Shown here: positions 1,341-52,690 of the stretch, in pieces
Position numbering within the stretch: position 1 is the stretch's first letter
How the letters are laid out: every line of letters starts with the position of its first letter
DNA from: Isoetes taiwanensis
Lineage: Eukaryota > Streptophyta > Lycopodiopsida > Isoetales > Isoetaceae
Length of the DNA stretch: 64,000 nt
Reading direction: 5' to 3'
Assembly (NCBI GenBank): GCA_021234155.1
Contig: JAJEKV010000076.1
Location: 171,452 to 235,451 of the forward strand
Notes under the pieces: generated by a model
Told to the model about the DNA's origin: nothing
Seen by the model: only the letters and a program-made list of their open reading frames with translations
Databases searched by the model: none
Translations under genes and position numbers: made by a program

Positions 1341-1395
1341 GAGGTCGTGATAACCAAAAAATGCGGTGATCGAGGTTATGCGTCCGAGGCTAGAA

Positions 1396-1458: not shown

Positions 1459-1588
1459 ATATGGCCAAGGACATACAACTGAGGCCACGCATTTTAGCCG
1501 CTCCAGAGATCAAGACTCGAGCAGTTTTGGCAGTCTATGGCAAAACTCTATTCATATGCATCAGCCTACATCTCTGGAAGGGCGATGA

Positions 1589-1762: not shown

Positions 1763-1767
1763 TTCCC

Positions 1768-1784
1768 AAAAAAAAAAAAAAAAA
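1768..1784 (+). repeat. Poly-A tract, length-variable between units
   Basis: A run of 17 A here, 23 at 28,932-28,954 and 24 at 56,038-56,061. It directly follows the EIDAMVAAL fragment, so it could be a retroposed 3' tail or simply an unstable homopolymer. Confidence 0.8.
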
Positions 1785-1809
1785 TTGTTAATAATCGTAT
1801 ATATAGGAA

Positions 1810-2200
1810 GGACAGAAGCCAAGCCATCCAAGAAAGATCCTCTATCAGCATCTTGTTGAAATTGTTGTGACTCAAACAACAATTTATTGGATGGAATAGG
1901 TCTTCAGCTTCGGCTATGTCCTGCAAGCTCCCAGCAAACTCGACGATGTATTCTGCAAAGAAATCCACAAATTTTCTACCTCAAAAGCCAAGCCATCCAA
2001 GATAGATCCTTTATCAGCATCCTGTTGAAATTGTTGTGACAGATTAAGTTTTTCTATCTCCATCGTTTCAATAATTTCTTCTTTCCATCCCCTATCTCTT
2101 AGCCTTTCTGCAATGTCCTGCAAATAACCATTTGACTCAAACAATGATTTATTGGATGGAATAGATCTTCAGCTTGTAAGAAGCAAAGAAAATCTTCTGC
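1810..2200 (-). pseudogene. Unassigned coding-like fragment with an internal repeat motif (minus strand)
   Basis: On the minus strand two adjacent frames share the motif QQFQQDAD(K/R)GS(I/F)LDGLA, once in a frame containing ERLRDRGWKEEIIETMEIEK and once about 170 bp further on. The DNA repeat underneath is AAGCCAAGCCATCCAAGA, at about 1,818 and 1,988. Conservation at protein level, with K/R and I/F changes, suggests an old coding origin. Copies occur at about 28,975-29,350 (unit B) and 56,085-56,460 (unit C), where frames are broken. I do not recognise a domain. It may be two tandem exons of a larger gene. Confidence 0.35.
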
Positions 2201-2459
2201 TTCAACAAAAAACAAAATTCTCACGCCCACTCTAGAGATCAAGACTCGAGTAGTTTTGGCAGTCTATGGCACAGCGGTATGGTAAGATGCCTAGGTAGAT
2301 AGATATTTTGAAGATAGAGTTTTGAAGATAGATATTCTTCTGTTGAGAAAATGAAGTCCACAGTTTTTCTAAGTGGATAAAAACCTATGCTAGATCTAGA
2401 CAAAGCTTACGCATTTTACGATCGTAGGTTCAACCAAGTAACCCTCATGTTTTGTGCCT

Positions 2460-3720
2460 TGGGACTATGGTAGGTGGCACTAGGATGGTGAGGCTAAAAG
2501 CCATGCCCCTAGAGTTGCCCCTAGGACCTAGACTTCCTAAGGCGGGATTAAATCCTGCCTACAAAGTGTGCATGTAAGGCAAAAGTTTTATCCAACGGAT
2601 GTGTGGTGAGTTGGTATAGGCCTAGTAATGCCAAAATAAATGTACATTTGGTCATGGGTTCAAATTTTGCCAGTTTCATTTATATTTGGAAGTTGGTTAC
2701 TAGGGGTATACGATGATGATCCCTGACGTGGTAGAACTTAAAAGCCTATATGTGTCCTCCACTTTGGTTGTCGCAAGGAGGCGTGGGATAAACTAGCTAG
2801 TCTGTACAAGATTAGTCTAGTATGGACCTTAAATAAAATAATAAAAAATCAATGGGACTATGGTAGGTGGCACTAGGCAAGCAACCCTGAATGTTACCAA
2901 CATGCCCAACACACTTAAGACACCTTATGCAATTCGTAATTATTATATTTAAGAAGTTAGAAGTGACATGTATGCAACAGGATCATAGGACATACTCACG
3001 GGGAGACCCAAAAAACTCAGGGATTAGACATGCTTCTAAGAGGAGAAGGAGAAAAAGAATAACAGTGAAGCACTTACTTACTTAAGGGACATCTTTATAC
3101 CTAGGGATGAATGAACTACGTACCAAAATTTATGACAAACCTGGCAGATGATTAGTTTAAATTTGTTGGTTGAATTGGTCAATCCAAAAATAAAATTATG
3201 CCAGAAAGAAATTGATCAACTTCATGTCTATGAAGAATAACACTGAACCCAAAACCCGGTAAGCAAAAAGCCATGCCCTAGAGTTGCCCCTAGGACCTAG
3301 ACTTCCTAAAGGCGGGATTAAATCCACGCCTATAAAGTGTGCATGTAAGGCAAAAGTTTGCCGAACGGATGTGTGGTGAGTTGGTATAGGCCTAATAATG
3401 TCAAAATAAATGTACATTTGGTCATGGCATCAAACCTTGTCGGGTGTCATTTATAATTGGAAGTTGGTTACTATGGCGTGGTAGCCTCCACTTTTGGTCG
3501 CCGTAAGGCTATGGGATAAACTAGCTAGTCCGTACAACATTAGTCTAGTATGGACCTTAAACGAAGTAATGAAAAATCAATGGGACTATGGTAGGTGGCA
3601 CTAGGATGGTGAGGCTAAAAGCCATGCCCCTAGGGACCTAGACTTCCTAAAGGCGGGATTAAATCCGCCTACAAAGTGTGCATGTAAGGCAAAAGTTTTG
3701 CCCAACGGATGTGTGGTGAA
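2460..3720. repeat. Nested block of three related repeats (GGACTATGGTAGGTGGCACTA family)
   Basis: The sequence beginning GGACTATGGTAGGTGGCACTA and running through CTTCCTAAGGCGGGATTAAA to GTGTGCATGTAAGGCAAAAG appears at about 2,463, 3,268 (partial) and 3,588. The first two continue into GAGTTGGTATAGGCCTA and a GGTTCAAA word. The third is cut at GTGTGGTG. A different repeat (2,872-3,260) lies between the first two. Units B (29,620-30,890) and C (56,730-57,990) keep the same arrangement, so the nesting predates the 27-kb duplication. Confidence 0.85.
2872..3260 (+). repeat. 390-bp dispersed repeat, copy 1 of unit A
   Basis: Begins near GCAAGCAACC and TGTTACCAACATGCCCAACA, and runs through GAGGAGAAGGAGAA and TTTGTTGGTTGAATTGGTCA to CTATGAAGAATAACACT. 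The same sequence lies at 5,594-5,990 in unit A, at 30,052, 32,787 and 35,778 in unit B, and at 57,147 and 59,875 in unit C. Its 64-65-residue plus-strand frame is open in most copies, but the encoded text is dominated by RRRRR from the GGAGAA run and I see no reason to call it a gene. Confidence 0.85.
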
Positions 3721-4176
3721 CCCTAAAATCGAAGAACACTAAATCGACAATTCCACTAGCCGTAGCTCCAACTTTGTTCTAGAATTGCCCAAATTCCTGA
3801 AAATCACTAGGGATTAGCTTTCTACCGATTTTGGCCTGCATTAGCTCGATTTTTAGGTTCTGATAGTTCAGATTTTTATTGTCCATGCATCGTTGCGAGT
3901 GTTTTTCACAAATCTGGCTCCATTCTGCGTGAATCTACTAATGAATCGTTCTAAACCGAGCACCCGTTGAAGCAGCAAGAACCGTAATTTTTTTGTTCGA
4001 CATTTTTTTGCAACGTGGCTTCGACGTGGCGATGGCCAAGATCTTGGTCAGGAGATAACCCCCGACCAAAAGCAGGTTGCTTGCCAGTTTCGGAGAAAAA
4101 GAATGTCAAAATCTTGAGAAAAGCACAAAACTCTATTCATATGCATCATTCTACATCTCTGGAAGGGCAATGATTT
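3721..4176. other. No gene seen
   Basis: Unique within the unit and very well conserved in units B (30,890-31,340) and C (57,985-58,436). On the minus strand unit B has a 98-residue open frame (31,037-31,333) that is not open across the other copies. I can assign nothing. Confidence 0.4.
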
Positions 4177-4401
4177 TCAATTAAGAAGCTAACTGCAAAC
4201 AGAACAGAAATTGATGCTATGGTGGCGGCGTTATACAAGAAAGCACGTGAAGCCGGCACATACAAACGGGGCAAATGCTATCCACGTCTTACCGAAAAGT
4301 CACTAATTCCAAAAAATCTTTTTTTGCTAGTAATCATATATATCGGAAGTCTCATTTCTCTATTCACCATATTGTTCACCATATTTACAACCATGTTATA
4401 A
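4177..4401 (+). pseudogene. Second paralogue of the EIDAMVAAL ORF fragment
   Basis: This frame matches the 1,589-1,762 frame: KKLTANRTEIDAMVAALYKK is followed by GTYKRGKCYP, then the frame continues into unrelated hydrophobic sequence and stops at 4,401. Three cysteines of the first paralogue are replaced (C to Y or R). The flanking DNA is also shared with the first paralogue (CTCTATTCATATGCATCA before it, GTCACTAATTCC after it), so a DNA segment of about 200 bp was duplicated. The unit B counterpart is near 31,341-31,500 and the unit C counterpart near 58,437-58,580. Function unknown. Confidence 0.35.
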
Positions 4402-6270
4402 ACAATTTTGGAAATATTTCCTTTCAATGCAAAATGTGATGGCCGTTTCATGTCTATAATGACACTTTCCTTAAGCCTCAAATAAGAGAGAGAAAATATG
4501 CCCCATTATTTTCTGCTCTTAAATTCTGGTGATTTTTTAAGAATCTCCATGTAGAAAGTTATAATCACTTTACTATGAACAGAGCAGTATCCAAGTGCAG
4601 TACTCAAGTCACTCCAGCAAACATCTTCATGTTAGTGCAATGAAATCCAGGAGTAGAATGTTTGAACAAACACATGGACAACATGATTATCTATGCAGCC
4701 AACTAAGACTCACGTAGGAGAGCTAATTGCAAATATATATTGATGCTCAAAAGTCACATCCTGCAAAATGCAAAAAGTAACAAGAGTCATGCAAATGAGC
4801 TCAATGAAGTGCCCAACATAATATCATTGACATAAAGAAAGAGGCAAACAAAGTAGATAACATGAACTTAGACTAAGACAGCCTAGTAACTCTGGGAGCA
4901 TAGATATTTGTCCAAGGTCTTACATTAAGTATGCAAACTGGCTGCCATTGGCACTGTCTCCTACTTAGCCATTACAACCAACCTCCATTGAGTAAAGAAT
5001 TGAAAATATTAGTGGAGAAACTTCCTATTACATATGGTAAAAATTTTAACATGCCCCCATCAATATTCACCTCACTTCAGAATCACAGTCGACAACTTAC
5101 ACTAACTTACACTAAGTGACAGTGGAATAATTGCAGCACACAATTTGAGGTTCATAACATTTCGGTAGTAGTGATGCCAATCTAGATAGGCCTATTTCAT
5201 CGGGGCGCACAAAATAGAAGCATGTATCAAATCCATCATCTCTCAATGAATGGAGATATAAATGGATGTAAAGAAAGATATGTCCATCACTAAAAGGAAA
5301 AATACACAAGAAAACTTTGATCTAATTCAGCAGCCCCTCTGAGAGTGAGATGCCAGACATGCCTGCGGCTGCAGTTATTATAGCCAAATGTTTATTTCTA
5401 AAATAAATCAAAGCCAGAACACATCAAAATCTTCGCATTTGAAGCACTAAACTTTATCGTCCTAGCAAAATGCTTTGGTTGGGCCGATACTTTTCGATCA
5501 TTTCTGTACCAAGCATCCAAGAGCCACCTTTATGGTAAGGCACAAAGCACGGGCGCCTTTTAATATATTCTTTTTGAAACAAGAGGCTCTACCCCCGCAA
5601 GCAACCACGAATGTTACCAACATGCCCAACACACTTGAGACACCTTATGCAATCCGTAATTACTATATTTAAGAAGTTAGAAGTGACTTTGTATGCAACG
5701 GGGGATCATAGGACATACTCCTCGGGGAGACACAAAAACTCGGGGATTAGACATGCTTCTAAGAGGAGAAGGAGAAGGAGAATAACAAAGAAGCACTTAC
5801 TTACTTAGGGACATCTTTATACCTAGGGATGAATGAACTACGCATACCAAAATTTATGACAAACCCGGCAGATGATTAGTTTAAATTTGTTGGTTGAATT
5901 GGTCAATCCAAAAATAAAATTATGCCGAAAGAAATTGATCAACTTCATGTCTATGAAGAATAACACTTGAACCCAAAACCCAAGAAGACTTGGGCTACCT
6001 AAAGCGGTATACCTACTTGGTGTCGGTTTTATTTGCTCAAGATGATCCGACAAAACGCATAAACTTGTAAGTCACAATTGCAAACCAGAAATGGGCAACA
6101 TAAAACAAATTCCGCCTTGCTTGCTTTCATTTGAATCCTCTAGGGGCCCATAAACCCTAAAAAATTCGACTTTTAATCTTGCCTTTAAAGTCATTTTGCG
6201 GAAGCATTTGGCGATTTCTTTGATTCAACCCTAGTCGATCTTGCGGTCGATTCGGACCATTTTTGTGATT
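4402..6270. other. No recognised gene; contains 390-bp repeat copy 2 and conserved minus-strand frames
   Basis: The minus strand 5,112-5,309 encodes LRDDGFDTCFYFVRPDEIGL, kept in unit B (32,300-32,497). A second minus frame, ending NAKILMCSGFDLF, is kept at 32,586-32,768, 35,578-35,763 and 59,671-59,907. These look more coding-like than their surroundings, but I recognise no family and find no start or splice sites that join them. 5,594-5,990 is the second copy of the 390-bp repeat. Confidence 0.4.
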
Positions 6271-6410
6271 ATTTGCCTTATCCAAGCAGCTGTGAGCTCT
6301 GCCGGGGAGATACCACTTTGTAACTTCTGAGGAGGAAGAAAGAAACCCTTTTCCAAAATCCGGATAAAAGCATGGCCGGAAGAAATTTTATAGGGCAAAA
6401 GGTTAAAAGG
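6270..6410 (+). repeat. About 140-bp repeat shared with the region upstream of the secreted-peptide gene
   Basis: The segment from GTGATTATTTGCCTTATCCA through GAGATACCACT to GGAAGAAATTTATAGGGCAA is repeated at about 8,878-9,005, immediately upstream of the secreted-peptide gene. It recurs in unit B at about 33,465, 36,470 and 37,328 and in unit C at about 60,555 and 63,185. A duplicated promoter-proximal segment is one explanation. Confidence 0.8.
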
Positions 6411-6413
6411 TAC

Positions 6414-6447
6414 AAGAAATTTATCGCGGCGGCCTTGAACATTTCTC
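6414..6447 (+). repeat. GCGGCGGCC palindromic mini-element (degraded copy)
   Basis: AAGAAATTTATC, then GCGGCGGCC, then GAACATTTCT: half of the palindrome found complete at 36,615-36,657 and, inverted, at 17,913-17,955. The right GC arm is missing here. Confidence 0.6.
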
Positions 6448-6477
6448 TTCACTTCACTTCACTTCACTTCACTTGGA
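6447..6477 (+). repeat. CACTT pentanucleotide microsatellite
   Basis: About five CACTT units; copies near 33,628, 36,658 and 60,745 have different numbers of units. A simple length-polymorphic tract next to the GC palindrome. Confidence 0.85.
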
Positions 6478-6545
6478 TTTCAACTCAGATAACGAGGGTT
6501 TTGCAGGGTTTTCGAGCAAAAGAAGCCAATAGTGAGAAGCTCAAG

Positions 6546-13720: not shown

Positions 13721-14673
13721 ATGCCATCAAGCATGGCCGCTTCCAATTCATGCAAATCCGAACAGAGAGGCCTGCTTTGTGCCACCGGAAACTGGGGACT
13801 TCTTGGGTGTTCTATTATCAGGCCTCTCATTAGGGATTTTTTGAGATCATAAAAGGGCCTTCTAAGAACTGCTGACTAAGCTATATGAACTACCAATCGG
13901 AAAACAGAACTGGTAATCCAGTCAGCAAAACAGTTATAACTAACTTACTGGATCACATTTTCTAGCATAAGTGTTGATAGAAAAGTCCAAATGAGCTCTT
14001 GTTTGGTGCAATAGATAGATCTCATTGAGATCTTTCCAACCTTGGGTGGTTTGCATATCTTTTAGTCCCGTAGGATAGTAAAAAATGGTAAAAACCATAT
14101 TTTTTAGAGTTTTGACAATCATAAGTGGTTAGAATATGTGCAGCACCTAAGGTTGGAAAGATCTCAATGAGATCTATCTATTGCACTAAAGGAGAGCTCA
14201 TTTGGACTTTTCTATTAATAGTTATACTAGAAAATGTGATCCAGTGAGTTAGTTATAACAGTTTTGCTGACTGGACCCGTCAGGCTCTGATTTCTGATTG
14301 GTAGTCCATTTATCTTCATTTGGCTTAGTTGGCATGTTTTGAAGGCCCTTTTTTAATCTAAAAAAAAACCTAATGTCTTTTTAAAGGCTACCATGCCCGC
14401 TGCACAATTAGCATCACACCAGGTTAGATTTGTTAATGTGGAAAAAGAAATTTTCCTTTTTTCTGCCATCTAAAATGGCTATCTCATTTCTAAATTTTGC
14501 AAAACCCGGAGCATGCAAGTTTGATTAATGTAATCTTGCTGTGCAGAGGTGAGTCATGAGCTTGTGCATGCTTATTTGCTTAGCTACAACAGCCTTTCTA
14601 AGGCATTAATGGCTGTGAAGGAGTCTTCCATGTTCCCGCTCCACATGAAATAATTGGCACTAGAGATTATCCA
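13721..14673 (+). pseudogene. Cinnamoyl-CoA-reductase-like fragment, two exons, broken by a transposon (unit A)
   Basis: Exon 1 (13,721 to 14,422, including the element) begins MPSSMAASNSCKSEQRG and continues LLCATGNWGLLGCSIIRPL. The TGxxGxxG pattern of the NAD(P)-binding Rossmann fold is present. At 13,828 a 548-bp foldback element interrupts the codons that should follow RPL. Coding text resumes at 14,376 (KGYH, then CAG/GT at 14,422). Exon 2 (14,547-14,673) encodes HAYLLSYNSLSKA, but one C is missing (AAGGCATTAATGG against AAGGCCATTAATGG), shifting the frame before NGCEGVFHV. It ends CCA/GTAAGT. The family acts in phenylpropanoid and related NADPH-dependent reductions. Later exons, including the catalytic YxxxK, are not found, so this is a fragment and in this copy clearly dead. 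Confidence 0.7.
13828..14375. mobile_element. 548-bp foldback MITE inserted in the CCR-like exon
   Basis: Unit B has the empty site (GGCCTCTTCTTTCTAAAGGC at about 40,821), so the ends are well defined. The element starts CATTAGGGATTTTTT...AAAAGGGCCTTC and ends GAAGGCCC...CCTAATG. Most of its length is a giant inverted repeat: CAGTCAGCAAAACAGTTATA pairs with TATAACAGTTTTGCTGACTG, and GAGATCTATCTATTGCA mirrors TGCAATAGATAGATCTC. A short TCT direct repeat flanks it. There is no coding capacity. A 3-bp target duplication and long inverted repeats do not settle the superfamily; Mutator-type elements would give 9 bp. Confidence 0.85.
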
Positions 14674-15659: not shown

Positions 15660-17115
15660 AAGTCCGGCATGGGGGTCCGTGTTGCCAAATCTCAAACTAT
15701 CCCATGTGTGCTACATAAAAAAATGAACGTCCCGCCATCATCGAGCTTCAAAAGCCCTGTTTTTTTGTCGTGGAATTGGGTTATGGGGGGCTTCCAACTC
15801 TGATTCATGCGGTTATGTGGTATATGCATATCTCGCATTTCCCATCATTCTAAAAATCTGATACAGAAAGTGAAACAGGGAAACGGGGAACAGGAATGGA
15901 ATGGATCTTCCAAATGGTGATTCTAATTTCTTTGCTTTCGATTACGCAAAGGACGAGGACATAATCTTTTAACTGTGATTCACCAAAATTGTTAGTAAGG
16001 CAACTGACTTCATGTCAAATTATAAATGTTCTGCAATAGTATAGGTAATTGAGTCCTGCTTTTAATATAATAGGATAGAATTTAAAAGAATTCTAAATTG
16101 AGACTGCACAGATATACTTATCTATAGTCAAAAAAAAAAATAGATATTCTTCTCCTCGAAATGATGGCCCTAGCTCGCATATATTATTTTATAAATTTTC
16201 TGAATCATGTTATCGGCAAAGTGATTGTTGTCGATGCCTAACAAAAGCCATTGATTTTAAACATCCAGTAGTTCTTAGGCTCCTTTAACATTATCTATAA
16301 TTTACGCAGTCCCATTGTCTAAATGGTCTGATTTGGTTTTATTTTTTCATAAGATTTGTTGTGTGTAATTTTTAACCCAGGATTCCCTTCTGCTAGATGT
16401 TTGTAATTCACTAAACATTGTGCTAAGACTGTTAATGGACATCACCTCTGTCTTGCAATCAAAACAGCAAAGCATTGAAGTCCTTGCTTACAGCATATTG
16501 ACTGCATTTTACTTGCATGATATATAACTCACTGGCACCCTTTACTTCATTTTTCGATTCTTTGGCCCAAATATGTGCGAGGCATTTTATTTTTACACCA
16601 CAACTCAATCATTGAGGATATTAAGAAGCTAAAGCTTTCGCAATAGCTTGATCTAAGCGTGCATCATTGGCATCTGTCATTTGAATCACCTTGCAAAGGC
16701 ACTTTGTGCCACATTGTGTTTAAATATATAAAACATCATGCGTGTTGTATTATTCAGAATATTGGAATAATGGTTAGCCTCATAAGGCAAGCTCCTTAAA
16801 ACTGATTGTTTTAAAAACATCTTTCAAGATCGTCATGGTTTCCCAATTGTAGAATTCTAATTTTGACTAAAGAATCCCAATAATTGAAGATTCTCATGTT
16901 GGATTCCCAATTGAAGGATTTTGATTTTGGCTTAAGAATCTTACTCCCAAAAGATGAAAACCAAGTTGCTACATTGCATTGAGTTGTCGAAGTAGTACAT
17001 TGAACATTGATGAAGATGTTATTTTAGAAATTTGGGAAAGGATCAGTATTAGTTTCTGGAATTGTTAAGTTCCACTGGTTGCAAGATTTATTTCGGGCAA
17101 GATATTTGGAGCATT
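15660..17115. other. No gene seen
   Basis: AT-rich. Includes a short ORF-like text near 15,895 (in unit B MDLPNGDSNFFALRL at about 42,336) and nothing else I can assign. Well conserved in unit B (42,100-43,552). Confidence 0.4.
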
Positions 17116-17279
17116 AGCTTCCAACCACATCAGACAGATCTTAAGTTGAGCTTAGGCATCATGGCGGAGGCACATTCTTAGGAATATGAATGAGAGTAGC
17201 TTCCAACCACATTAGGCAGATCTTAAGTTGAGCTTAGGCATCATGGCCGAGGCACATTCTTAGGAATATGAATGAGAGT
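17116..17279 (+). repeat. 82-bp tandem duplication (unit A)
   Basis: AGCTTCCAACCACATCAG/TTAGG through GGAATATGAATGAGAGT is repeated twice. Unit B has the same pair at 43,553 and 43,634, so this predates the unit duplication. Confidence 0.92.
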
Positions 17280-19577
17280 ACAGAGAGATGCCGAATAAGA
17301 AAATATAATTTTTCAAGTCAAGCAAAATCTAGTCTTTGCCATGCCTTCTTACCTGTAATTAGAGGATAACTCGAATTTGTTGGATATAATAACATGTATT
17401 GTGATAGATTTCATATATAATTACTGGTCGTATCATTCTTATTGCATTGTTTTTTACATGACGTTCTTGAAACTCTTAAGTTACTTCTCACGTGTTTGTC
17501 CCAACACTTGATTTTGATGCAAGGCTTGGTTGAAAGGAAATCGTTCGAATACTACATCGTAGAAAAATGTGCACCTACGAGTACTCAAGGAAAAGTCTCC
17601 TCTTGACATGTGTGATCTTTAGAACAAGATTGTGTTAAGTATTAGCATAAAGAGATGGACAATTGCAACCTAATGCCTGGCATGCAGCATTTAAATTTTG
17701 TGCAGTGAGGATCAACTACTTAGTACCATGCGGGTAGCATTTAAATTTTGAGCAAGATTCTAAAATTATCTGGTCTATCTTACGACAAGGACAAGCGTCC
17801 CATATATTCAATCCGTTCAAGAAGGCCTTTTGCGCAAATGCGAACTATGATAAATCCATTACTAAACAAGATTAGAACAAAGACTCAGGCCAACTTTATA
17901 GGGTTAGAACTAAAGAAATGTTCGCGGCGGCCTTGGCCGCCGTGATAAATTTCTTGTATACATAAACACACTTTGATGTGTGGGATGCATGGGTTGCTCC
18001 TTTCCATTTCGGTCATCAAATTTAGCTGTAAAATCTCGGCCACATGTTTAGATATGCGTACATGGCATGCGTGCATGATGGCATGCGTGCAGCAGATCTT
18101 AGTCGTTAGATCAAAAGGTGAGGATAAATCCTAGCCATTAAGTTTTTATAATAAATTGCAATGAGGTGAGGTGGCATCTTCATTAATAAAAAGGTAGCGA
18201 TTAGGTGGACTTTCTAGGAAGCTTTCTCTGTCTTAATTGCCTTCAAAGGCCTGTAACTTGCACTAGAGGGGTCGGATGAAGATGGGGCACATGCCTTGTA
18301 TTCTTCTCGTCGAGAGCTTTTCAACGACCGGTACTTTGGCACCGTTCATGTGTGTATCTTAGCATTAGGTTTCACTTTGCATTAACAATTACATACATCT
18401 TAGAAGTAAATAGCTAAACCTTTGTAATAATTCTAAACCTTGCTAATTGTGCATTGTGTAGATAATAATGTGTACCATAAAAGTGGTAGCAATGTACATT
18501 ATTGCATATAAATTGGAAAATATATTTATTAGGTTATGCCTTACACTATACCATAAAATGGCCACACTAACATAATCTATAGAATGGTCATTGTAACTCA
18601 CTAAGCATTTTAACCAATGTTAACATGAATTCTCTAGATGTTAGTTGTGGGGTTAGTTGTTTTGCAATCCTTGATGCTTATTTGTTGTTGCATTTGCTCA
18701 ACAATGTGATGCAAACGCATGCGTGATTGTAAAATTTCCAATAATGTCCTTAAAACAATGTAGAGACGCTTAGAGGTATCCATAATGTTCCTCTGGAGCA
18801 AACGATGATGATTTACCATTCTAAATGAAAAATATCTTGTATACATCAAGTATGTTTCTATATAGCAACATAAATAGACGCCCTTACATCCTTGAAGACA
18901 ATTGTCGATGCTTTATTATTTTAATTATCTTGTACACATAAGAACAGGTATAAATGTCCTTACATTCTCATGACTATCAACCACGTGAGACAACTCATCC
19001 CGAAGATGGTTGTAAACGATTTCAAAGTGGCATTTGTAATGGTTATGGACATAAAATCACTACATACAGCTAAAAGAACCCATCTTGCTACAAAACGTAA
19101 ATCTAGAGAACAATGTGCTACATATAGAAAGTTTTCAAGGTTGAGCGGAAGATCTGAGTATGGGCTGCTTGCAAAATAGGGCGCCTATGAGTTCCTTGTC
19201 GATGCACTCAGGCTCTTCTTTTGTAATCCTCAACGTCTTCAATGTACCCGATAAACAGATTCGAAGCATACTCTGTTTTGCACCAAATGTAACCATCCAT
19301 ATTTCTTTCTATAATTCATGCTTCGACGTCTTCTTCTGGACCAAAATCTTAGATGCTCATACCAACACATTTTATGCCTATGAAAGGCTTATAAATCAGA
19401 GTTAAAACACGGGTGGAACAAAATACAGGCAAATAGTTCAAGGCCATGCTTTCTATGGAAAAAAAGAGCTTAAGATGTTGTTAGTGGCTATGTTAGAACT
19501 GATAGTGTTCATCTCGTGTGTTTCAGTGGAAAGGTCACATACATTAACTTTCTTCCATATCGTGCCATGGCTATCTT
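17280..19577. other. No recognised gene
   Basis: Contains the inverted GCGGCGGCC mini-element (17,913-17,955) and GCATGCGTGCATGATGGCATG near 18,063. Small plus-strand frames at 18,970-19,179 and 19,160-19,405 are only partly kept in unit B (45,382-45,633). No domain recognised. Confidence 0.4.
17913..17955 (-). repeat. GCGGCGGCC palindromic mini-element, inverted copy
   Basis: AAGAAATGTTC, GCGGCGGCC, TT, GGCCGCCG, TGATAAATTTCTT: a 43-bp near-palindrome. Read on the minus strand it matches 36,615-36,657 in unit B, including the AAATTTAT and GAACATTTCT flanks. The counterpart at about 44,354 is degraded. Confidence 0.75.
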
Positions 19578-19829: not shown

Positions 19830-20880
19830 CCTTTATAAATCTTAGGAGGTGTATCACTTATGGACCTCACCGCACTGCTTGATTAATGGAACAGCTAAAG
19901 CAAGCTCCTTAACTTTTGGAATTTTAGAAATAGCTAACTCTATTTTGACTGAACTCTAACAACCAGACGTCACATGACTAAAAGTCATATTTGTTACAAT
20001 ATCAGAGTTACAATAAATAAAACTGTGGAATTAGCTCATCATAAAGAAATACTTAGAACCCGTATACACTATTCCTGCTTATATACTGAAGTTTTTGTTA
20101 TGCACATGATTCAGATTTAACAGTGCCAGCCAATTCCTCAAGAAATCCTGCTTCGCAAAGCTTTGCAATATCTTCTAGTCCATGTTCTTTTTCTGCATAT
20201 TTTAGCTTATTATTTTTGCTTGATTTCCTTATCAACATAAAGCTTATCATCAGACTGTAAGTTATCATTTTCGTTTTTACCTAAGCATATAAAAGTGTCT
20301 ACCTCACAAGTTATGCAATTGATTTCTTGTTAATGTTGGACGGATATGGCTGCTTCAAAATATTTATCACATATGAGAAAGTATTCCAATGTAAAGAGAA
20401 TGGAATAAAGCAAGTGGACTATATGGAAAGGTTCGATTTCTACATGATGAAAAAATGAGACCTCTTTTATGAAAGGTGGAATTGAAGGTATGTGTTCATG
20501 AGACAAACTTATGTATTCTTTTTTATCTTTTAGTGTGGCCTACAATGAATGGATTACGAACGCTTATGTTCAATATCAGAATTCCACCGCCCATTTCTCT
20601 CACAGTCTAGAAAATATTCTTTAGCATGAATAGAGACATGTACTTTGCCTGCATCCTTCATGTTGGATTGTTTTCATGAAGAAAACAATTGATTAACTGA
20701 TAAATAGAGTTAGGTTTTAAAGCACATGATTTCTTACTATATTAGTAAGATTAAGGCACTCTAGATCCTTCTTTCTCCTGCTACCTCATTAGTAAGACTG
20801 AGGTAGTAAGATTATTAGGGGTTTGGAGAAGCACTTGTTCTGGTGGTCCACATAAAGTTGTCTCTTGGGGTCGCGATTAC
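19830..20880. other. No recognised gene
   Basis: AT-rich, conserved in unit B (46,790-47,870). GAGGTAGTAAGATTATTAGG and related ATTAGTAAGA(T/C)T words are repeated at 20,740-20,820. No coding signal. Confidence 0.4.
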
Positions 20881-22205
20881 AATTGGCCAAGTCGGGTCCT
20901 TAGTAGTACCCATGTTTGTATGGCATCCTTACTGCTAGCCCCACAGATCAACGTGCGTGAGCTCATTGCAATAGTTTGGAACTTTATTTGGGCGAAGGTG
21001 GCTTGGTCGAAGTGTATCCTTCCAAGATGGGCAAGTGGTCTGGGTATGATGGACTTCTTACTGCAGAGCAAAGTGCTTATTTCAAAGTTCATTTGGAGAC
21101 TCCTGAATAGTGAGGATGACTCTCCTGGTTCATGCCTTCTTAGACAAGCTCTTCGTCACTGTATCCTTCTAGGCAAGAAGGCTGTCAAACCAATCCTACC
21201 TTGGGCTTTATTTCAGACTCTGCAGCCTTTTCCAAGTGCTTCTCCATTTTTGCGTGGCTTGTTGACTGAGATGGAAGGCAAATCAGGACATCTTTTTCCG
21301 CCATGCCCCTCTATCCACACCCTATTGAGACTCCATGGTGGTGGGCACCACTACCTCCGGACCCCTCGGCACCTCCATTGGCAAAGACATCGGGTTCATC
21401 CCCTTACACGAGATGATGGGTCCTTGCGTGTGTTGTCTCTATTCAAGCATAGTATGAAGCGGGTCACCCTCTTGTCTTGGCCTGAATTTCGGGCAAAGTT
21501 CCGCGCTCTCGTTGGGATGTATCTCTATGGGAGAAGGTCGCAGAAAATTTGCCTCTTATAGTGCAAGTTGGTGTTCTTTGAAAAGGGTGCCATGGGACTG
21601 TCATGAAAATATTCACAAAGGCAAGCACTTTGTCGATCAAGATATCGCCTTCTTTTTAGCACCACGACCCCTCCGGTTGCCGGATGGGTGGCACCTCACA
21701 GTTCCACAACCCATTTTGTGTCGCGACATGGCGATGGCTTTGGGATAGGTTGCTCCACCCTAAAGTCTCTCAGATTGTAGTGGCGGGTTATCCACGTGTG
21801 CTGCGGGTTAATGCCTTTCGACATCACTATGATCCTCGTGATATCTGCAGTATACCCGCTCTCTCTTCGGGACGTTGAGACTCTTGAGCATTGTCTCTTT
21901 TATTGTTGTGGGGTTCAACCAGCGTGGTCACGGCTATAAGGTTTATTTAACAAGACATTGGACCTGCCGATGCATCCTCTTGGCGCCCTATCCCAACGCA
22001 TGACCTCCATCTAAACAAAGGGCTTCCATCTTGGTTCGATTAGCTCTTATGGTCGATATGGGAGCGTCGCCAGACACCACATCTTTCGGGCATTAATTCA
22101 TCGCGACGCGATTTTATTATGGTTGCCCGTAAAAAGATATTGATGACCTACGAAAGTGTTCCTCCCTTGAATCGTAAATGATGGAACGCATTTGGATTCG
22201 ATATC
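20880..22205 (+). mobile_element. LINE (non-LTR retrotransposon) ORF2 3' end, degraded (unit A)
   Basis: The plus strand encodes NFIWAKVAWSKCILPRW then GLGMMDFLLQSKVLISKFIW and RLLNSE. This corresponds to the region just after the reverse transcriptase of plant L1-type elements (FLW..... W...C.PK..GGLG..DL...N.ALL.KW.WRL). About 750 bp further on, WRWLWDRLLHPKVS and, in another frame, VETLEHCLFYCC with QPAWSR form the zinc-binding domain that ends such polymerases (W..PPKV...W... C..C....ET..HLF..C). Several frameshifts separate the blocks. The catalytic YADD region is upstream and missing, so this is a 5'-truncated relic, as expected of incomplete target-primed reverse transcription. Confidence 0.8.
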
Positions 22206-22416
22206 TCAATTGATTCTTCTCGTTAGTCTCCTATTTCGGAGTAAGTACACCGTGCTCCGTGTGCTCGTGTTCTGTGGCATTTTTTTGTGCTTACGGTTAG
22301 ATGATGTGGCGTTCGAGGGAAATATCGCCATAAATACGTATATTTCCAGGTCCATCACTATACAAGTCTATCTTCATAGCCTTGTATACCATAGATTGTG
22401 GCACTAGGGGGCATGA

Positions 22417-22438
22417 CTAAGTTATTCATATAACTTAG
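22417..22438. repeat. Subterminal palindrome of the LTR
   Basis: CTAAGTTAT-TCAT-ATAACTTAG, nine paired bases with a four-base loop. Unchanged in unit B (about 49,367). Confidence 0.9.
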
Positions 22439-22516
22439 CCAACCTTAGGTTAAGACCATTTTCCACATGGCCTTAACCTATTGGGCACCCGCCACACGGA
22501 CTTACCCTATTGGAGC

Positions 22517-22570
22517 CACGTGGCATAACACGTGAACCCTAACCTATAAAGGCCTAAACCCTAACCCTAG
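22517..22570 (+). promoter_or_regulatory. LTR promoter: two G-boxes, TATA box, telobox
   Basis: CACGTG at 22,517-22,522 and 22,529-22,534, two ATTGG (inverted CCAAT) words shortly upstream, TATAAA at 22,545-22,550, then AAACCCTAACCCTA at about 22,556. Order and spacing fit a plant polymerase II promoter; transcription would start about 30 bp after the TATA box, near 22,578. Confidence 0.6.
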
Positions 22571-23948
22571 GCCTCTTTTCTGGCTCCAACAGTCCGGGAA
22601 CATTCTTCGCGCTCGAAACTCCGTTTCGAGAACCGCTTGTCGTGGGCACAAAGATAGCATGGCAGCCCCCAGAGCGTGAGCGCATCAGCAGGAGTGGGAG
22701 CTACCTCGAACACTTCAAAGACCATGGAGATGCCAGGATTGGGAGGGAGTGCTTCTGGGGCAGGTATATAGAGTAGTGCTCTTAGTAGTTCATCTGGAAG
22801 TTAGCACTCCAGATGGGTTAGCATTTCGTATCTAGAGTAGAGCCATCCTAGAACCCTTATTGAACATCTTGAACCCTAATCAAGGAACCCTAACTGTAAG
22901 TTATATATGTATGATCAGGTTAAGATGTTCTTATGATGATTATCATGATATGATATTATGTGATGTTGGTTGATCATGTTTACTCCTCTTGTATTGGGAA
23001 GGGGGGTAGAGACCTAGTAGCCATTACGTAGCATGCTCCTAGTTTAGACCCCTTAGTTCCTATTATTTGTGCATAGGAACCCACCGGGCTATGGAGGCCA
23101 TGATGTGATTCAGCACTACACAACGGGGCTAGAGGCAATGCGGAGGGAGGATCCCTGCCGAGCGGGGGCTACGGGGGATCCCATAGTGAGCTAGGCTTAT
23201 GGTCGGTCACTTCGTGTGGGCCGGGCATGGGTACGACACCTCCTGGGGCAATGGTGTCGCCCTGCCTCTCAAGAGTTGCAAGTGTTGGCTTGGCTCTTGT
23301 TTTGGGGGGTTAAGTCGGGTATGAATCGTGTGTCGCGACGATTCTCTAGCCACTCGTGGAACCTCTAGACCCCGGGAAGGGGAGATGCAACCATTCCTGC
23401 CTCCACGGACCAGGGAGATGCAACCTGGAGTAGTCCCGATGGGTGATGCCATGGGATTGCGTATCCGGAAGGCTAGAGTCATGCCAGAGCTTGATCTAGC
23501 CCATCTGCAAAGTATGCACAGGAGGGGCGGATGGAGTGGTCAACCCTAGCCATTGTCTATAGCCAGCCCCACCATTGTTATGACTCGGTCTGCTCTATCT
23601 TGAGGCCTAGCGGTCCAGTCCAACCTCCTCATGAGTCGGAGCCATGGGTAGGAGCTCTCATATTTTATGGCATATGTTTATCTTTTTTGTAGCTATGGAT
23701 ATGTGGATGGACTACCCTTCGAGGTAGTATGATGTGTTGTTATTGCTAGTTCTGACGTTGTTTATGCTTCCGCTGTGATAGGAGCCCATAGGGGAAGGGC
23801 GCGCAAGACACCTTCGTGTCCCCTTCCCGCAATTAGGTGATCCCAAAGTGCGGGATAGACGGAGGGCCCGTGCGGTCGGAGGACCGGATGGGGGATTTCC
23901 TACGGAGTGTACGGCCGGGTGCCGTATATTTTGTAGGGAGCATCACAA

Positions 23949-23960
23949 TGGTATCAGAGC
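23949..23960 (+). promoter_or_regulatory. Primer-binding site for initiator tRNA-Met (unit A)
   Basis: TGGTATCAGAGC, complementary to the 3' end of plant tRNA-iMet, one base after the CACA end of the LTR. Confidence 0.9.
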
Positions 23961-24690
23961 AATGTTCTTGGTTGACCAAGAGCTAGCCCTGACCATATCC
24001 TTGAATAGGTAGACTAACTGGCTTAGCTAATAAATGGAATGGGAATTCCAGTCTTGAACCGCGAAATGTGGGAGAAATTTTTTCCCCATTAGCAAGGTCA
24101 TAATTAGATTGAATATAGTCTAAGTGAGAAATAATATAGTCAAAAGAAACCTTCTAGTAAATTTGAGGTCAAGTTGTTCATGAACCGCACCTTTCAAGAA
24201 AAAATTGAACGAGAAATCGCTCAAAAGAAGCTTGAAAGAAAATGGCGTGAAATGACCACTACTTGGCCCAAAAGAAATTAGGAAATTATGAGAAATAGTT
24301 AGGTGATTAGGGAAAGTACCTTAATTAATAACCCATAGTTATAATAAAATTACTCTTAAGAAAAGTAGCTATTAAATCTATGGAAGCACCTCTACTCCTT
24401 AGAAATTCCCAAAGAGTAGCTTGAACCTGTCCTTTACCCTTGTAAGGCGAATTATAAACTAATCTCTGAAGCTGCCATAAGAGCGTCGATCGACTCAAAG
24501 GAGCTGCGAATAGACATAGTCGACAATTAACAGAGGCAAGATCGCTCGAAGAGGCCAGCATCAAAGAATTAAACAAGTAGCTAGGAAGGTTGGAAGCTCC
24601 AGCTTGCACCAGAACGTTAAGCACTCAAGGTGGGCGGCGACAAGCAAATTCTTGAGGCCCGGCGACCTAGGCCAGATGACCTCGGCAGTA
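23961..24690 (+). other. Leader of the LTR element
   Basis: AT-rich, with a 33-codon charged frame from ATG 24,179 (MNRTFQEKIEREIAQKKLER) ending at about 24,280, broken by an A insertion in unit B. Otherwise non-coding. No gag signature was seen. Confidence 0.45.
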
Positions 24691-25545
24691 GGAGCCAACA
24701 CCAGGAAGAGCAGGTGAGGAGCAAATAGCAAGAGCAACCTCAACAACAGGAGCAACCACAACACCAGGAAGAGTAGGTGAGCAGCAAGTAGCAGGAGCAA
24801 CCTCGGAATACGAAAGCAACCCCAAAGCAGAACAACAAACAAAGAAGGGGCAATCAATCACGCGAAAAGAAAAGGAAGGAAGGGACGAGGCAAGGGAGAA
24901 GCGAGAAAGAGGCGGAAGCTAGGAAGGGGAGGGGGCGTGGTTATCGAGAACAAATGCCTGCATTTAACCGGAGGAGGATGAGCTCGAGGAGGAAAGACCA
25001 CACCAACAAGAGGAGGGAGCAAGAGGCTAAAGAAGAAGAGGAGGAGGAGGCCAAAGAACGTGACGGAGTCTCACGCCAAGCAACCATATCCAATGCAGTC
25101 CAAGGAGGGCAACATCGTGAGAAGCTACTTAAAGCTGAAGCAAGATATGGAGTACGAGAAGAAGAAGGCAGCATGCAAGATTTATCTCCCGCCAATGGAT
25201 CGACAAGGTAGCGACCGTGGTCGAAAAGCAAGCCTCCACCACCTCGACTCGACTCTCCGAAGAAGGTCCTCCATGGGCCAAACTCCCGGCACGCTCGGGT
25301 GTTTAAGGAGATTAGGCACTTTCAACAGTGTATTAATCTCCTAATAAGGAAAGCGCCATTCAAACACCTTCTTCGCTAAGTATCACGGGGAGTTCCGGAC
25401 TGATTCTGTGGTCATACCTCTAACCACCCGGGCCCCCAAGAAGAAGCCTCCGAAGTAGAGCCTCTAAAGTGAGCGAGAGCTTTTATACAAGATACCATTG
25501 TGGGTTCAAAGAGGTATACCAAGAGATCAAACTCAAATAACATCC
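24690..25545 (+). pseudogene. Histone-H3-like core with a long charged N-terminal tail (unit A)
   Basis: A coding-like stretch begins with a repeated PGRAGEEQIARATS / PGRVGEQQVAGATS motif. It becomes rich in E, K, R and Q (NKRREQEAKEEEEEEAKE) and ends in a segment alignable to the histone fold of H3: TPGT at 25,282, VFKEIRHFQQCINLLIRKAP with FKHLLR (25,299-25,378), TDSVVIPLTTR (about 25,397), then text for ALQEASE (about 25,431). Canonical H3 has PGTVALREIRRYQ, ELLIRKLPFQRLVREI, TD and ALQEASEAY in this order and at nearly this spacing. A later KRYT resembles KRVT. Frames change at three or four points, most at CCG/CTG text. It lies 1.3 kb downstream of the LTR primer-binding site on the same strand. 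It may be a histone gene captured by a retroelement, or an H3-variant pseudogene. Confidence 0.6.
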
Positions 25546-40719: not shown

Positions 40720-41125
40720 ATGCCATCAAGCATGGCCGCTTCCAATTCATGCAAATCCGAACAGAGAGGCCTGCTTTGTGCCACCGGAAACTGGGGACTT
40801 CTTGGGTGTTCTATTATCAGGCCTCTTCTTTCTAAAGGCTACCATGTCTGCTGCACAATTAGCATCACACCAGGTTAGATTTGTTAATGTGGAAAAAGAA
40901 ATTTCCCTTTTTTCTGCCATCTAAAATGGCTATCTCATTTCTAAATTTTGCAAAACCCGGAGCATGCAAGTTTGATTAATGTAATCTTGCTGTGCAGAGG
41001 TGAGGCATGAGCTTGTGCATGCTTATTTGCTTAGCTACAACAGCCTTTCTAAGGCCATTAATGGCTGTGAAGGAGTCTTCCATGTTCCTGCTCCACATGA
41101 AATAATTGGCACTAGAGATTATCCA
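40720..41125 (+). pseudogene. Cinnamoyl-CoA-reductase-like fragment, two exons intact (unit B)
   Basis: Exon 1 (40,720-40,873) reads from ATG through LLCATGNWGLLGCS to IIRPLLSKGYHV, matching the family's TGAxGFxGSWLV..LL..GY.V opening, and ends CAG/GT. Exon 2 (40,998-41,125) follows TGCAG and encodes ELVHAYLLSYNSLSKAINGC then EGVFHVPAP, matching the DLLDYxSLxxAIxGCDGVFHVASP region. It ends CCA/GTAAGT. The one spare base of exon 1 plus two of exon 2 complete a codon, so the spliced frame is open throughout. About 15 residues usually found between the two blocks are missing. No third exon (EPAV.GT.NVL) or YxxxK was found in the next 2 kb. It is a captured or truncated SDR108E-type gene, with the splice sites kept. 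Confidence 0.75.
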
Positions 41126-41652
41126 GTAAGTTTGGTAAAGTTTCCTCTTGTTTTTTGTTGCAAAACTAAAGGTTACGGGCGGTTTAAAGGGAAAATGCTT
41201 AATCTCCTTTATTCTTCATGTTTAATCGATGAGCCGTCGGTTGTTACTTTATTTTTCCGTTTAATCCTGTTGCAAGGACGTCTCTGATCTTTGAATCATA
41301 CACAGTTTTCCCTTTGTTCCAGCAGAGGTTTTGCCTTTTCCAATTTCGTGCGATGATGTTGACATGGGTTTGGAGCTGCTGAAAATAAGCCAGGCAATGG
41401 ATAGGACATTTTCCAGATTTTCGGAAATAGGCTGGTTGGTTGTGCTGGAATAATAGCCACAGGTAGGCTTTATGTCGTTTGTTTTTTTGCCGGAGTTGAG
41501 CTCTGTATAAATCGGGAGACTTCATGCCAGTTTAGGGAAAGTAAAGCCAAAGGACACCAAGGTAGCTATTTGCATTATACTTCATATTGTCTTTTTTTTG
41601 TACAGATTTGACATTAAAGTCCGGTCAATATTTTTATTGTTTCTTGAAGGGC

Positions 41653-49165: not shown

Positions 49166-49346
49166 GATTCTTTCGTTAGTCTCTTATTGCGGGTAAGTAC
49201 AGCGTGCTCGGGCTCGTGTTCTGTGGCATTTTTTGTGCTTACGGTTAGATGATTGTGGCGTTCGAGGGAAATATCGCCATAAAATCGTATATTTCCGGGT
49301 CCCATCACTATACAAGTCTATCTTCATAGCCTTGTATACCATAGAT

Positions 49347-50888
49347 TGTGGCACTAGGGGGCATGACTAAGTTATTCATATAACTTAGCCAACCTTAGGT
49401 TAAGACCATTTTCCACATGGCCTTAACCTATTGGGCACCCGCCACCGCGGACTTACCCTATTGGAGCCACGTGGCATAACATGTGAACCCTAACCTATAA
49501 AGGCCTAAACCCTAACCCTAGGCCTCTTTTACGGCTCCAACGGTCAGGGAACATTCTTGGCCTTTCGAAACTCCGTTTTGAGAACCGTTCTTGTGGCCGC
49601 GACATAGCATGGCAGCCCAGGCGTGGCGCATCGGCAGGAGTGGGAGCTACCTCGAACACTTCAAAGACCATGGAGGCGCCCGGGATTGGGAGGGAGTGCT
49701 TACGGGCGGTATATAGAGTAGTGCTCTTAGTAGTTCATCACGGAAGTTAGCACTCGGATGGGTTAGCATTTAGTATCTAGAGTAGAGCCATCCTAGAACC
49801 CTTATTGAACATCTTGAACCCTAATCAAGGAACCCTAGCGTAAGTTATATATGTATGATTAGGTTAAGATGTTCTTATGATGATTATCATGATATGATGT
49901 TATGTGATGTTGGTTGATCATGTTTACTCCTCTTGTATTTGGAAGGGGGTAGAGATCTAGTAGCCATTACGTAGCATGCTCCTAGTTTAGACCCCTTAGT
50001 TCCTATTATTATGCGGCTGTGCATAGGAACCCAGGGCTATGGAGGCCATGATGTGACTCGGCACTACACAGCGGGGCTAGAGGCAATGCGGAGGGAGGAT
50101 CCCCCGGGCGGGGGGCTCTCTGGGGGATCCCATAGTGGGCTAGGCTTATGGTGGGTCACGCCGTGTGGGCGGGCATGGAGTGCGACACCTCTGGGGCAAT
50201 GGTGTCGCCCCTGCCTCTCAAGAGTTGCAAGTGTTGGCTTGGCTCTTGTTTTGGGGGTTAAGTGGGGGTATGAATGGGTGTGTGCGGCGATTCTCTAGCC
50301 ACTCGTGGAACCTCTAGACCCGGGAAGGGGAGATGCAACCCTTCCTGCCCCGCGGACGAGGGAGATGCAACTTTGGGTAGTCCAGATGGGTGATGCCATG
50401 GGATTGCGTGTCAGGAAGGCTAGAGTCATGCGAGCTTGATCTAGCCCATGCAAAGTATGCACATGAGGGGCGGATGGAGTGGTCAACCCTAGCCATTGTC
50501 TATAGCCAGCCCGCCATTGTTATGACTCGATGCTGCTCTATCTTGAGGCCTAGCCCGGTCAGTCCAACCTCCTCATGAGTCGGAGCCATGGGTAGGAGCT
50601 CTCATATTTTATGGCATATGTTTATCTTTTTGTAGCTATGGATATGTGGATGGACTACCCTTGAGGTAGTATGATGTGTTGTTATTGCTAGTTCGGCGGT
50701 GTTTATGCTTCATTTGTGATAGGAGCCCATAGGGGAAGGCGGCGCCAAGACACCGCCGTGTCCCCTTCCGCAATTAGGTGATCCCAAAGTGCGGGATAGG
50801 CGGAGGGCCCGATGCGGTCGGAGGGCCGGATGGGGGATTTCCCTCTGAGTGTGCGGCCGGGTGCGTATATTTTGTAGGGAGCATCACA
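49347..50888 (+). mobile_element. Long terminal repeat, 5' type (unit B)
   Basis: Same LTR, 1,542 bp, with the same TGTG and CACA ends. Numerous small changes are concentrated at CAG/CTG/CCG. The second G-box has become CATGTG. Confidence 0.75.
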
Positions 50889-50889
50889 A

Positions 50890-50900
50890 TGGTATCGAGC
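50890..50900 (+). promoter_or_regulatory. Primer-binding site (unit B, one base missing)
   Basis: TGGTATCGAGC: the CAG of the unit A site reads CG here. Such a loss in an otherwise matching site fits the CAG-type alteration seen throughout. Confidence 0.8.
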
Positions 50901-51779: not shown

Positions 51780-52690
51780 CAACCTCGGCGGTGGGCCAAC
51801 ACCGGGAAGTATAAAGCGGTGAGGAGCAAATAGCAAGAGCAACCTCAACAACAGGAGCAACCACAACACGGGAAAGAGTAGGTGTTTAAAAGCAGTTCAA
51901 GTAGCGGGAGCAACCTCGGCAATCTGAGCAACCCGGAGGGCCGTATTTTTGGGAACAACGATCAAGCGGGGGCGTTATAAAAGCAATCAATCTTGAAAGA
52001 AAAGGAAGGAAGGGGCGTAGGCAAAAAGAGCAACCGAGAAGAGGCGTGAAGCTAGGCGTAGGGGGCGTGGTTATCAAGAGAACAACAGGGCCAAACGGCT
52101 GGAGGAGGATGAGCGAGGCGAGGAGGAAAGACCACACCAACAAGAGGAGGGAGCAAGAGGCTAAAGAAGAGGAGGAGGAGGCCAAAGAAACGGCTTAGAC
52201 GTTTCGGCAACCATATCAATGCAGTCAAGGAGGGCAACATCAGTGAGAAGCTACTTAAAAGCTGAAGCAAGATATGGAGTCTGACGAGAAGAAGAAGGCA
52301 GCATGCAAGATTTATCTCCGCCAATGGATCGACAAGGTAGCCGGCCGAGGGTCGAAAAAGCAAGCCTCCACCACCTCGACTTTCGACTCTCAGAAGAAAG
52401 GTCCTCCATGGGCCAAACTCGGCACGCTTCGGGTGTTTAAGGAGATTAGGCACTTTCAGCGGTGTATTAATCTCCTAATAAGGAGCCATTCGAACACCTT
52501 CTTGAAGTAATGTCATGGGGAGTTAGGACTGATTACATGGTCATACCTCTAACCACAGGGCCTGCAAGAAGCCTTAGAAGTAGAGCCTCTAAAGTGAGCG
52601 AGCTTTTATACAAGATACCATTGTGGGTTCAAAGAGGTATCCCAAGAGATCAAACTCAAATAACATCCTAAGCGGTCTTCCACTACCGAT
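51780..52690 (+). pseudogene. Histone-H3-like core with charged tail (unit B)
   Basis: Same gene as at 24,690. A frame from 52,274 encodes EKKKAACKIYLRQWIDKVAG, then KLGTLRVFKEIRHFQRCINL with LIR, and breaks where unit A has RKAPFKHLL. It resumes with GVRTD and VIPLTT, and CTGCAAGAAGCC (LQEA) lies at 52,561. Between the units the core can be read except at altered CAG/CTG sites. The tail here has a 155-bp stretch (about 51,625-51,785) missing from unit A. No intron is evident in the H3 part, as with replication-type plant H3 genes or a retrocopy. Confidence 0.6.

Follow-up and report, generated by a model that had tools for sequence, protein, structure and literature searches.

A decayed histone H3-bearing ORF1 of a Ty3/gypsy chromovirus family in Isoetes taiwanensis

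Core histones are thought to be under strict host control. The nearest precedent for the element described here, going by the accessible text of the report, is the H3-like gene H3L of a hAT DNA transposon in the fungus Pyrenophora tritici-repentis (Manning et al. 2013, PMC3538342), which fits neither H3 nor CenH3 fully and has insertions in its tail. A core histone is also encoded by a bracovirus, where CpBV-H4 joins host nucleosomes and its tail alters gene expression, according to the available portions of two papers (PMC5423620, PMC9145170). Among plant Ty3/gypsy elements, extra open reading frames (ORFs) are common and mostly heterogeneous (PMC6317226), and the domains named in the accessible parts of the literature are the plant mobile domain, Transposase_28, and Athila ORF-1 (PMC6317226, PMC3350952). 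No report of a retrotransposon-encoded histone was found in the literature searched, the coverage of which did not extend to subscription papers and preprints.

The Isoetes taiwanensis genome was assembled from nanopore and Illumina data as 1658.30 Mb in 204 scaffolds and 909 contigs (PMC8566536), and the word "histone" is absent from the accessible main text of both Isoetes genome papers (PMC8566536, PMC10541799). The stretch of DNA analyzed here, called the window throughout, is 64 kb long (C1085:171452-235451), and the assembly searched for related copies comprises 1,658,258,908 bases in 1,110 contigs. What the window holds is ORF1, in decayed form, of a Ty3/gypsy chromovirus family. Three protein subfamilies of this family have an H3 fold, and so does a more distant lineage that includes the window copy.

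The window and its H3-like relic

A tandem unit of about 27 kb is repeated 2.36 times in the window (positions 1-27172, 27173-54289, and 54290 to the end), and the units are 92-94% identical over their first 6.6 kb. A 1.3-kb probe from this array (window 16600-17900) found 8 matches on C1085 inside 212 kb (C1085:3828-215791) and many further matches over about 1.1 Mb of contig C1034 (5.5-6.6 Mb); the matches were mostly 95-99% identical, with 40 of 140 candidates scored. The window sits inside a macro-tandem array, as allowed for by an earlier sequence-only reading, in which one account of the locus was an H3 variant with a long tail, located in a repeat array. An exon at 40985-41284 (+) resembles cinnamoyl-CoA reductase or dihydroflavonol reductase (PDB 4r1s, E = 2.2e-4) and has no match in Pfam; the array may be a tandemly amplified gene cluster. 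An inverted repeat at 13828-14375, with 142-bp arms that are 90% complementary and separated by 75 nt, is the sole pair of at least 80 bases reported within the window. Rfam and tRNA scans returned nothing useful.

Both complete units carry an LTR, then a primer-binding site (PBS), and then, about 1.35 kb farther on, H3-like text, all in the same sense, and in these respects the sequence-only reading was right. In copy A, the 5' LTR (TGTGGCG...CATCACA) spans 22305..23947 (+) and the PBS, TGGTATCAGAGC, was read in the sequence at 23949..23960 (+). In copy B, the LTR lies at 49254..50888 (+) and the PBS at 50890..50900 (+); when the two units are aligned, it is shorter by one base than its counterpart in copy A. 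The LTR ends were set by the ends of a relative on contig C913, which are flanked by a target-site duplication (TSD), and by locus L018. We take the PBS to be of the initiator tRNA-Met type, and a 25-mer spanning it has a single occurrence in the window when as many as three mismatches are allowed. Sequence 5' of the LTR (20755-22300, +) gives the impression of the 3' end of a LINE, with no Pfam match at 0.05 within 20755-21558, and the LTR element may have inserted into this LINE-like sequence. Neither gag nor pol turned up in the window frames searched; the absence of both between the LTR and the H3 text, which had been remarked upon earlier, follows from the gene order of the family, because ORF1 precedes gag-pol.

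In copy A, the leader and the decayed ORF1 with its Q/E/K/R-rich tail were delimited at 23951..25287 (+) by blastn to a full-length relative, L038, and the decayed ORF1 tail of copy B lies at 51782..52420 (+). A decayed H3 fold follows in each unit: at 25285..25460 (+) in copy A, with alphaN-alpha1, loop 1, the start of alpha2, and several frame breaks, and at 52421..52579 (+) in copy B, where it extends to LQEALE. The ALQEASE string quoted in the sequence-only reading occurs literally in neither copy, as copy A has QEEASE at this place. A single frame of copy A reads RVFKEIRHFQQCINLLIRKAPFKHLLR (25296-25376), and the 55-aa frame that holds it (25212-25379) matched H3 chains weakly when compared with PDB sequences by phmmer (best E = 0.0032). 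Pfam detected no histone in single frames of the window. With the pieces of copy A joined by X, the histone profile PF00125 gave 16.8 bits (E = 0.0085), below its gathering cut-off of 26.4, and copy B joined in the same way gave no match. Against PDB sequences, the X-joined copy B placed four gp41 constructs on top (E = 2e-5) and H3 next (E = 7e-4); no stretch of the gp41 matches passes alone.

Frameshift-tolerant alignment, for which the query was a plant H3 fold, scored 93 at copy A and 67 at copy B, and the next place on either strand scored 51. Sixty shuffled windows reached at most 58 when shuffled whole and 59 when shuffled in 500-bp blocks, and 280 shuffled H3 folds reached at most 67 against the window; Gumbel P values were 3e-6 for a score of 93, which becomes 0.06 after correction for 20,000 families, and 0.004 for a score of 67. 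When the fold was divided into segments, alphaN-alpha1 of either copy outscored every one of 400 shuffles and each of the 1,162 other stretches. Support for the loop 1-alpha2 start was modest: in copy A, 6 of 400 shuffles and 7 of the 1,522 stretches equalled or exceeded it, and in copy B, 0 of 400 shuffles and 1 of 1,522 stretches did. The H3-fold text described earlier at this place is upheld in these segments, but its KR(Y)T portion is not: the alpha3 segment is at chance level, with scores as high in 224 of 400 shuffles for copy A, where a possible remnant of the alpha2 end and alpha3 (KRYT..EIKL) lies at 25461..25536 (+), and in 157 of 400 for copy B. The N-terminal tail of H3 is likewise at chance level in the relic (241 of 400 shuffles in copy A and 125 of 400 in copy B).

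A stretch at 25104..25404 (+) aligns with the ORF1 linker and H3 of the L024 lineage at a score of 125, compared to 100 for host H3 (maximum of 160 shuffles, 77; P = 1.7e-7), and copy B scores 79 with the same query (P = 0.0045). For the fold only, the L024 and host H3 queries score alike against the relic, at 97 and 94. The N-domain of ORF1 is undetectable in the window copy with the L024 query, for which shuffles against the window reach 68. A candidate H4 beside the H3 of copy A (24871-25185, score 75) was rejected as an effect of composition, given scores of up to 68 for shuffled H4 and of 44 for copy B. From the window alone, the identity of the relic as H3 is probable, if unproven. The resemblance is real, and its decisive support comes from the other copies in the genome.

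The array also shows an unusual pattern of sequence differences. When three units were compared over 6.5 kb, 37-60% of the single-copy differences were indels. Over longer stretches, differences between units were about 2-9 times denser in CHG triplets than elsewhere, with densities in CAG, CTG, CCG, and CGG that were often 0.2-0.45 compared to 0.04-0.09 elsewhere; this enrichment was weaker between units A and B over 1-6500 and in the ORF1 tail, where it was 1.5-2.5 times. CAG in unit A is often CGG in unit B, and CTG is often ACG or TTG; overall, CAG of one unit was CGG in another in 28 of 101 cases. The pattern resembles systematic base-calling error at methylated CHG sites, probably from nanopore reads, rather than mutation. 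Because the differences look like base-calling error, being concentrated in CHG and rich in indels, part of the frame breakage in the window may have this origin; the breaks are not clean evidence of decay, and we rejected them as proof of pseudogenization. Host H3 and element sequences are both affected by assembly noise, and the CHG pattern calls for care whenever reading frames from this assembly are analyzed.

A full-length relative and the genomic family

The window LTR gave at least 41 matches in the genome, with 40 of 8,127 candidates scored, and several were spaced as pairs. The one pair examined bounds the full-length relative L038 (C913:3098733-3110591), which has a 5-bp TSD (GTGCT) on both sides, a PBS with one mismatch, and a polypurine tract (PPT), AAGGGGGGGAGAA, 5' of its 3' LTR. 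Its two LTRs share 98.06% identity across 1,550 aligned sites, and both are 93-94% identical to the window LTR. By blastn, the window matches L038 at 88% through the leader (window 23951-24679) and at 84% through the tail (window 24741-25287; L038:2766-3304), and the DNA similarity stops at window 25287. Just past the aligned tail, L038 carries a 45-aa H3 stretch that is over the PF00125 cut-off (56.3 bits, E = 5e-15); the alphaN-alpha1 half of H3 was not seen there, and the ORF1 N-domain is borderline (score 71 with the L024 query). A chromodomain lies about 5 kb beyond the H3 (Chromo, 39.3 bits, over the cut-off). The window H3 belongs to the element: a relative with LTRs of 93-94% identity bears H3 at the same place. 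The sequence-only reading had asked after other copies with the same LTR and had named the same tail without H3 as an outcome that would undo it; in L038, H3 follows the tail. Among the seven other LTR matches taken as short loci, three (L031, L035, and L037) have H3-like text that starts at the end of the sequence examined. No such text was seen in L033, L034, or L036, and most of these three stop short of the expected place or exactly at it.

A genome search with PF00125 produced 8,705 first-look candidates, and the 150 that were scored were all over the gathering cut-off. Fifteen of them span profile positions 2-122 at 164-165 bits, and the eight inspected (L002-L009) are ordinary H3 genes. 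The remainder, at least 135, form a separate class that scored 144.5-154.7 bits (E = 3e-39 or better), with open frames as long as 494 aa; five of them have an inner stop. Transposons can therefore inflate histone gene counts in such genomes. Twenty of the 135, chosen by H3 score, were inspected with their flanks, and the H3 fold was found in every one. LTR-like sequence lies 5' of ORF1 in 18 of the 20 and gag-pol downstream in 18 (in L018 solely past a second LTR), which, together with the H3 of L038, bears out the earlier suggestion of a retroelement that captured a histone. The PBS 12-mer, allowing one mismatch, follows the LTR in 13 of the 20. Seventeen have an uninterrupted ORF1 of 411-459 aa that opens with a shared start motif and closes beyond the H3, and the Pfam Histone domain was found in all four ORF1s tested (141-147 bits, E = 4e-43 to 3e-41), so that the profile check proposed for the relic, which fell short there, succeeds in its family.

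Searching the genome with the N-domain gave 2,972 candidates, of which 150 were scored and 12 inspected, none of these among the scored PF00125 matches. H3 was at the right place in 11 of the 12, although broken in several, and none was found within the 1.65 kb examined of L045. The family copy numbers from this one species are lower bounds of at least 135 (20 inspected) and at least 150 (12 inspected). In viral contigs, the PBS pattern had no matches and the ORF1 alignment yielded 108 pattern stretches, none of which was confirmed; a 16-residue match there (L001) falls outside the H3 part and was regarded as chance.

ORF1 begins with a conserved N-domain of about 230 aa and ends with the H3 fold; between them lie a linker rich in Q/E or E/K/R and then a basic stretch. 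Its three protein subfamilies have N-domains that are 32-36% identical to that of L010. ORF1 is followed on its 3' side by two more ORFs, both well conserved: ORF2 (about 480 aa) in 19 of 20 loci and ORF3 (about 170 aa) in 16. Pfam detected Ty3_capsid, RVP_2, RVT_1, RNaseH, H2C2, rve (just under the cut-off), and Chromo in L019, and gag and PR in L024; a putative zinc knuckle in gag was below the cut-off (E = 0.005). With the order gag-PR-RT-RH-IN and a chromodomain, along with paired LTRs, PBS, PPT, and TSD, the element is a Ty3/gypsy chromovirus with three extra ORFs upstream of gag. No significant Pfam match was obtained for the N-domain, for ORF2 (L010, L012, L020, L022, and L029), or for ORF3 (L013 and L024), nor did a PDB sequence search with the N-domain and ORF2 (L020) give one. 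AlphaFold modeled ORF1 poorly (mean pLDDT of 53, with 34-53 per block in the H3 part), and Foldseek with this model found nothing at E = 0.001 or better. In the chromodomain, YLVKWKHLPVEDATW, the middle Trp is kept and the presumed last cage site has no aromatic residue. It looks like the plant type that is without part of the methyl-lysine cage, among the types given in the accessible text of PMC6317226.

Residues and selection in the H3 fold

The H3 fold of ORF1 is identical to host H3 at 77-82 of 92 positions (84-89%). An alignment of 17 ORF1s shows the alphaN sequence PGTVALREIR, a loop 1 of H3 length with FKTDLRF, and AIHAKRVTIM. Residues C110, H113, R116, and D123 and the FKTDLRF loop, which we take to be positions in contact with H4, H3', or DNA, are invariant in all 17. 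Among copies picked by the N-domain, loop 1 varies, reading FKIDL in L044 and YKTDM in L051. By its residues, the fold is of canonical H3 type and not CENH3; the two had earlier been called inseparable at this locus, and it is the FKTDLRF loop and the identity to host H3 that separate them. Relative to host H3, the changes S86A/T, S87F/H, E105S/G, and T107A occur in all 17 ORF1s, and V89I and I124L in 16. A protein tree of H3, with 1 of 20 branches starred, is too shallow to place the capture, and the changes common to the subfamilies suggest that there may have been a single one.

The N-terminal tail of H3, ARTKQTARKSTGGK, was not demonstrable in 18 ORF1s compared with 500 shuffles each: 15 were matched by at least 55 of the 500, and the other three by 10, 18, and 34. 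ARKS occurs only in L024 and L029 of these 18, and the same shuffle test gave no good evidence for an H3-tail origin of the ORF1 sequence upstream of RKPHR.

The median dN/dS of the H3 fold was 0.044 in subfamily I (36 pairs) and 0.013 in subfamily II (21 pairs), at median dS values of 0.70 and 0.57, and that of the N-domain was 0.092 in subfamily I, for the 23 of 36 pairs whose dS is finite, and 0.117 in subfamily II; values from these first 20 loci are biased downward because the loci were picked by H3 score. In copies picked by the N-domain, the H3 fold had a median dN/dS of 0.036 and a maximum of 0.087 (10 of 15 pairs with finite dS), using six copies with the full 92-codon fold, one of which (L046) has a stop whose codon was omitted. 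Between subfamilies, dS is mostly saturated, yet the fold keeps its identity to host H3. These codon comparisons place the H3 fold under strong purifying selection, and its retention at mostly saturated dS implies that the element needs it.

A putative element-made histone and its relation to known systems

We consider it likely, on sequence grounds, that the window holds a decayed H3-bearing chromovirus ORF1 whose better-kept relatives encode an element-made nucleosomal H3 variant. ORF1 would be translated, its conserved fold would pair with host H4, and the protein would enter chromatin with the N-domain displayed in place of the H3 tail. The element might thereby gain chromatin at its own DNA or target sites that is without the usual K4/K9/K27 tail. 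Because no such tail is demonstrable, ORF1 nucleosomes would miss the usual silencing marks, and this chromatin could resist silencing or tether the integration machinery. More tentatively, the element may build chromatin of its own, with the N-domain-fused variant replacing host H3 on the element or its targets, a possibility that we rate somewhat short of even; the integrase has a chromodomain, and a single selfish element would then be the source of a histone as well as of a putative reader of histones. The data lend no support to self-recognition through H3K9me, because the chromodomain seems to be short of the full methyl-lysine cage. The testable question that this raises is whether a transposable element can provide a nucleosome subunit of its own and in this way escape silencing or direct integration.

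The H3 fold could instead work within the element particle or the pre-integration complex, as a nucleocapsid-like module that binds DNA or RNA or dimerizes, and never enter host nucleosomes. The position of ORF1 upstream of gag and its long charged and basic linker are compatible with such a role, and a large foreign N-domain might impede nucleosome packing. DNA binding, however, would not require that 77-82 of 92 host H3 residues be kept, the conserved residues presumably include H4 and H3' interface sites, and gag itself has the possible zinc knuckle, so that we judge this role unlikely. We strongly disfavor the notion that a host H3 was transduced and merely copied as a passenger without function. 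Heterogeneous extra ORFs are frequent in plant LTR elements, and a fungal hAT element has amplified an H3-like gene, as far as the accessible text of these reports goes (PMC6317226, PMC3538342). A passenger, however, would hardly show a median dN/dS of 0.013-0.044 at a dS of about 0.6-0.7, or persist where dS is mostly saturated between lineages with N-domains that are 32-36% identical; copies chosen regardless of H3 also have it in 11 of 12 cases, at a dN/dS of 0.036.

A CENH3-type histone for centromere targeting is suggested by INLLI and APF in the relic, which resemble CENH3. CENH3 has a longer, divergent loop 1 without FKTDLRF, whereas better-kept copies have a loop of H3 length with this motif and the high identity to host H3 given above, and the relic itself scores 93 against H3 compared to 75 and 70 against CENH3 sequences; we regard a CENH3 as very improbable. 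A solo LTR next to an unrelated host H3 or CENH3 pseudogene in a duplicated 27-kb segment would accord with the weak match and the gag/pol-free frames searched when the window is taken alone, but no PBS is expected after a solo LTR, and the TSD-flanked L038, alike in LTRs (93-94%) and in leader and tail (84-88%), has H3 at the same place. This full-length relative refutes the idea, to which we give scarcely any weight. Chance resemblance in a low-complexity frame might be entertained from the family-corrected P of about 0.06 for the window match alone, and it is refuted by the family copies, with their PF00125 E of 3e-39 or better, and by the homologous place in L038 (E = 5e-15), leaving it a probability close to nil.

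Several known systems share features with the element that we consider to be the source of this putative H3 variant. Compared to the host H3 genes (L002-L009), ORF1 has a fold that is 84-89% identical and a canonical loop 1, but it differs in having no demonstrable ARTKQTARKSTGGK tail, in its subfamily-wide changes, and in its fusion to other domains. LTRs, a Met-type PBS, a PPT, a 5-bp TSD, and gag-PR-RT-RH-IN-chromodomain are common to it and to plant chromoviruses as described in the accessible parts of PMC6317226 and PMC3350952; the Isoetes element differs by its three extra pre-gag ORFs, the first of which has the H3 fold. H3L of Pyrenophora is alike in that a transposon bears and multiplies an H3-like gene. 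It belongs, however, to a DNA transposon of a fungus with 26 very similar copies, going by the available text (PMC3538342), whereas the Isoetes element is an LTR retrotransposon of a plant, with at least 135 scored matches (20 checked), in which H3 is fused to a new domain of about 230 aa and diverged subfamilies are under purifying selection. A hAT element of the Pyrenophora type was rejected for the Isoetes family, which has LTRs and a retroviral-type pol in place of TIRs and a hAT transposase, with no hAT domain in the frames scanned. CpBV-H4 is similar in being a core histone that comes from a mobile or viral genome, although it is H4 rather than H3 and belongs to a wasp polydnavirus. Its joining of nucleosomes is reported in the accessible text on that system, and by analogy it may serve as a model for how ORF1 would act.
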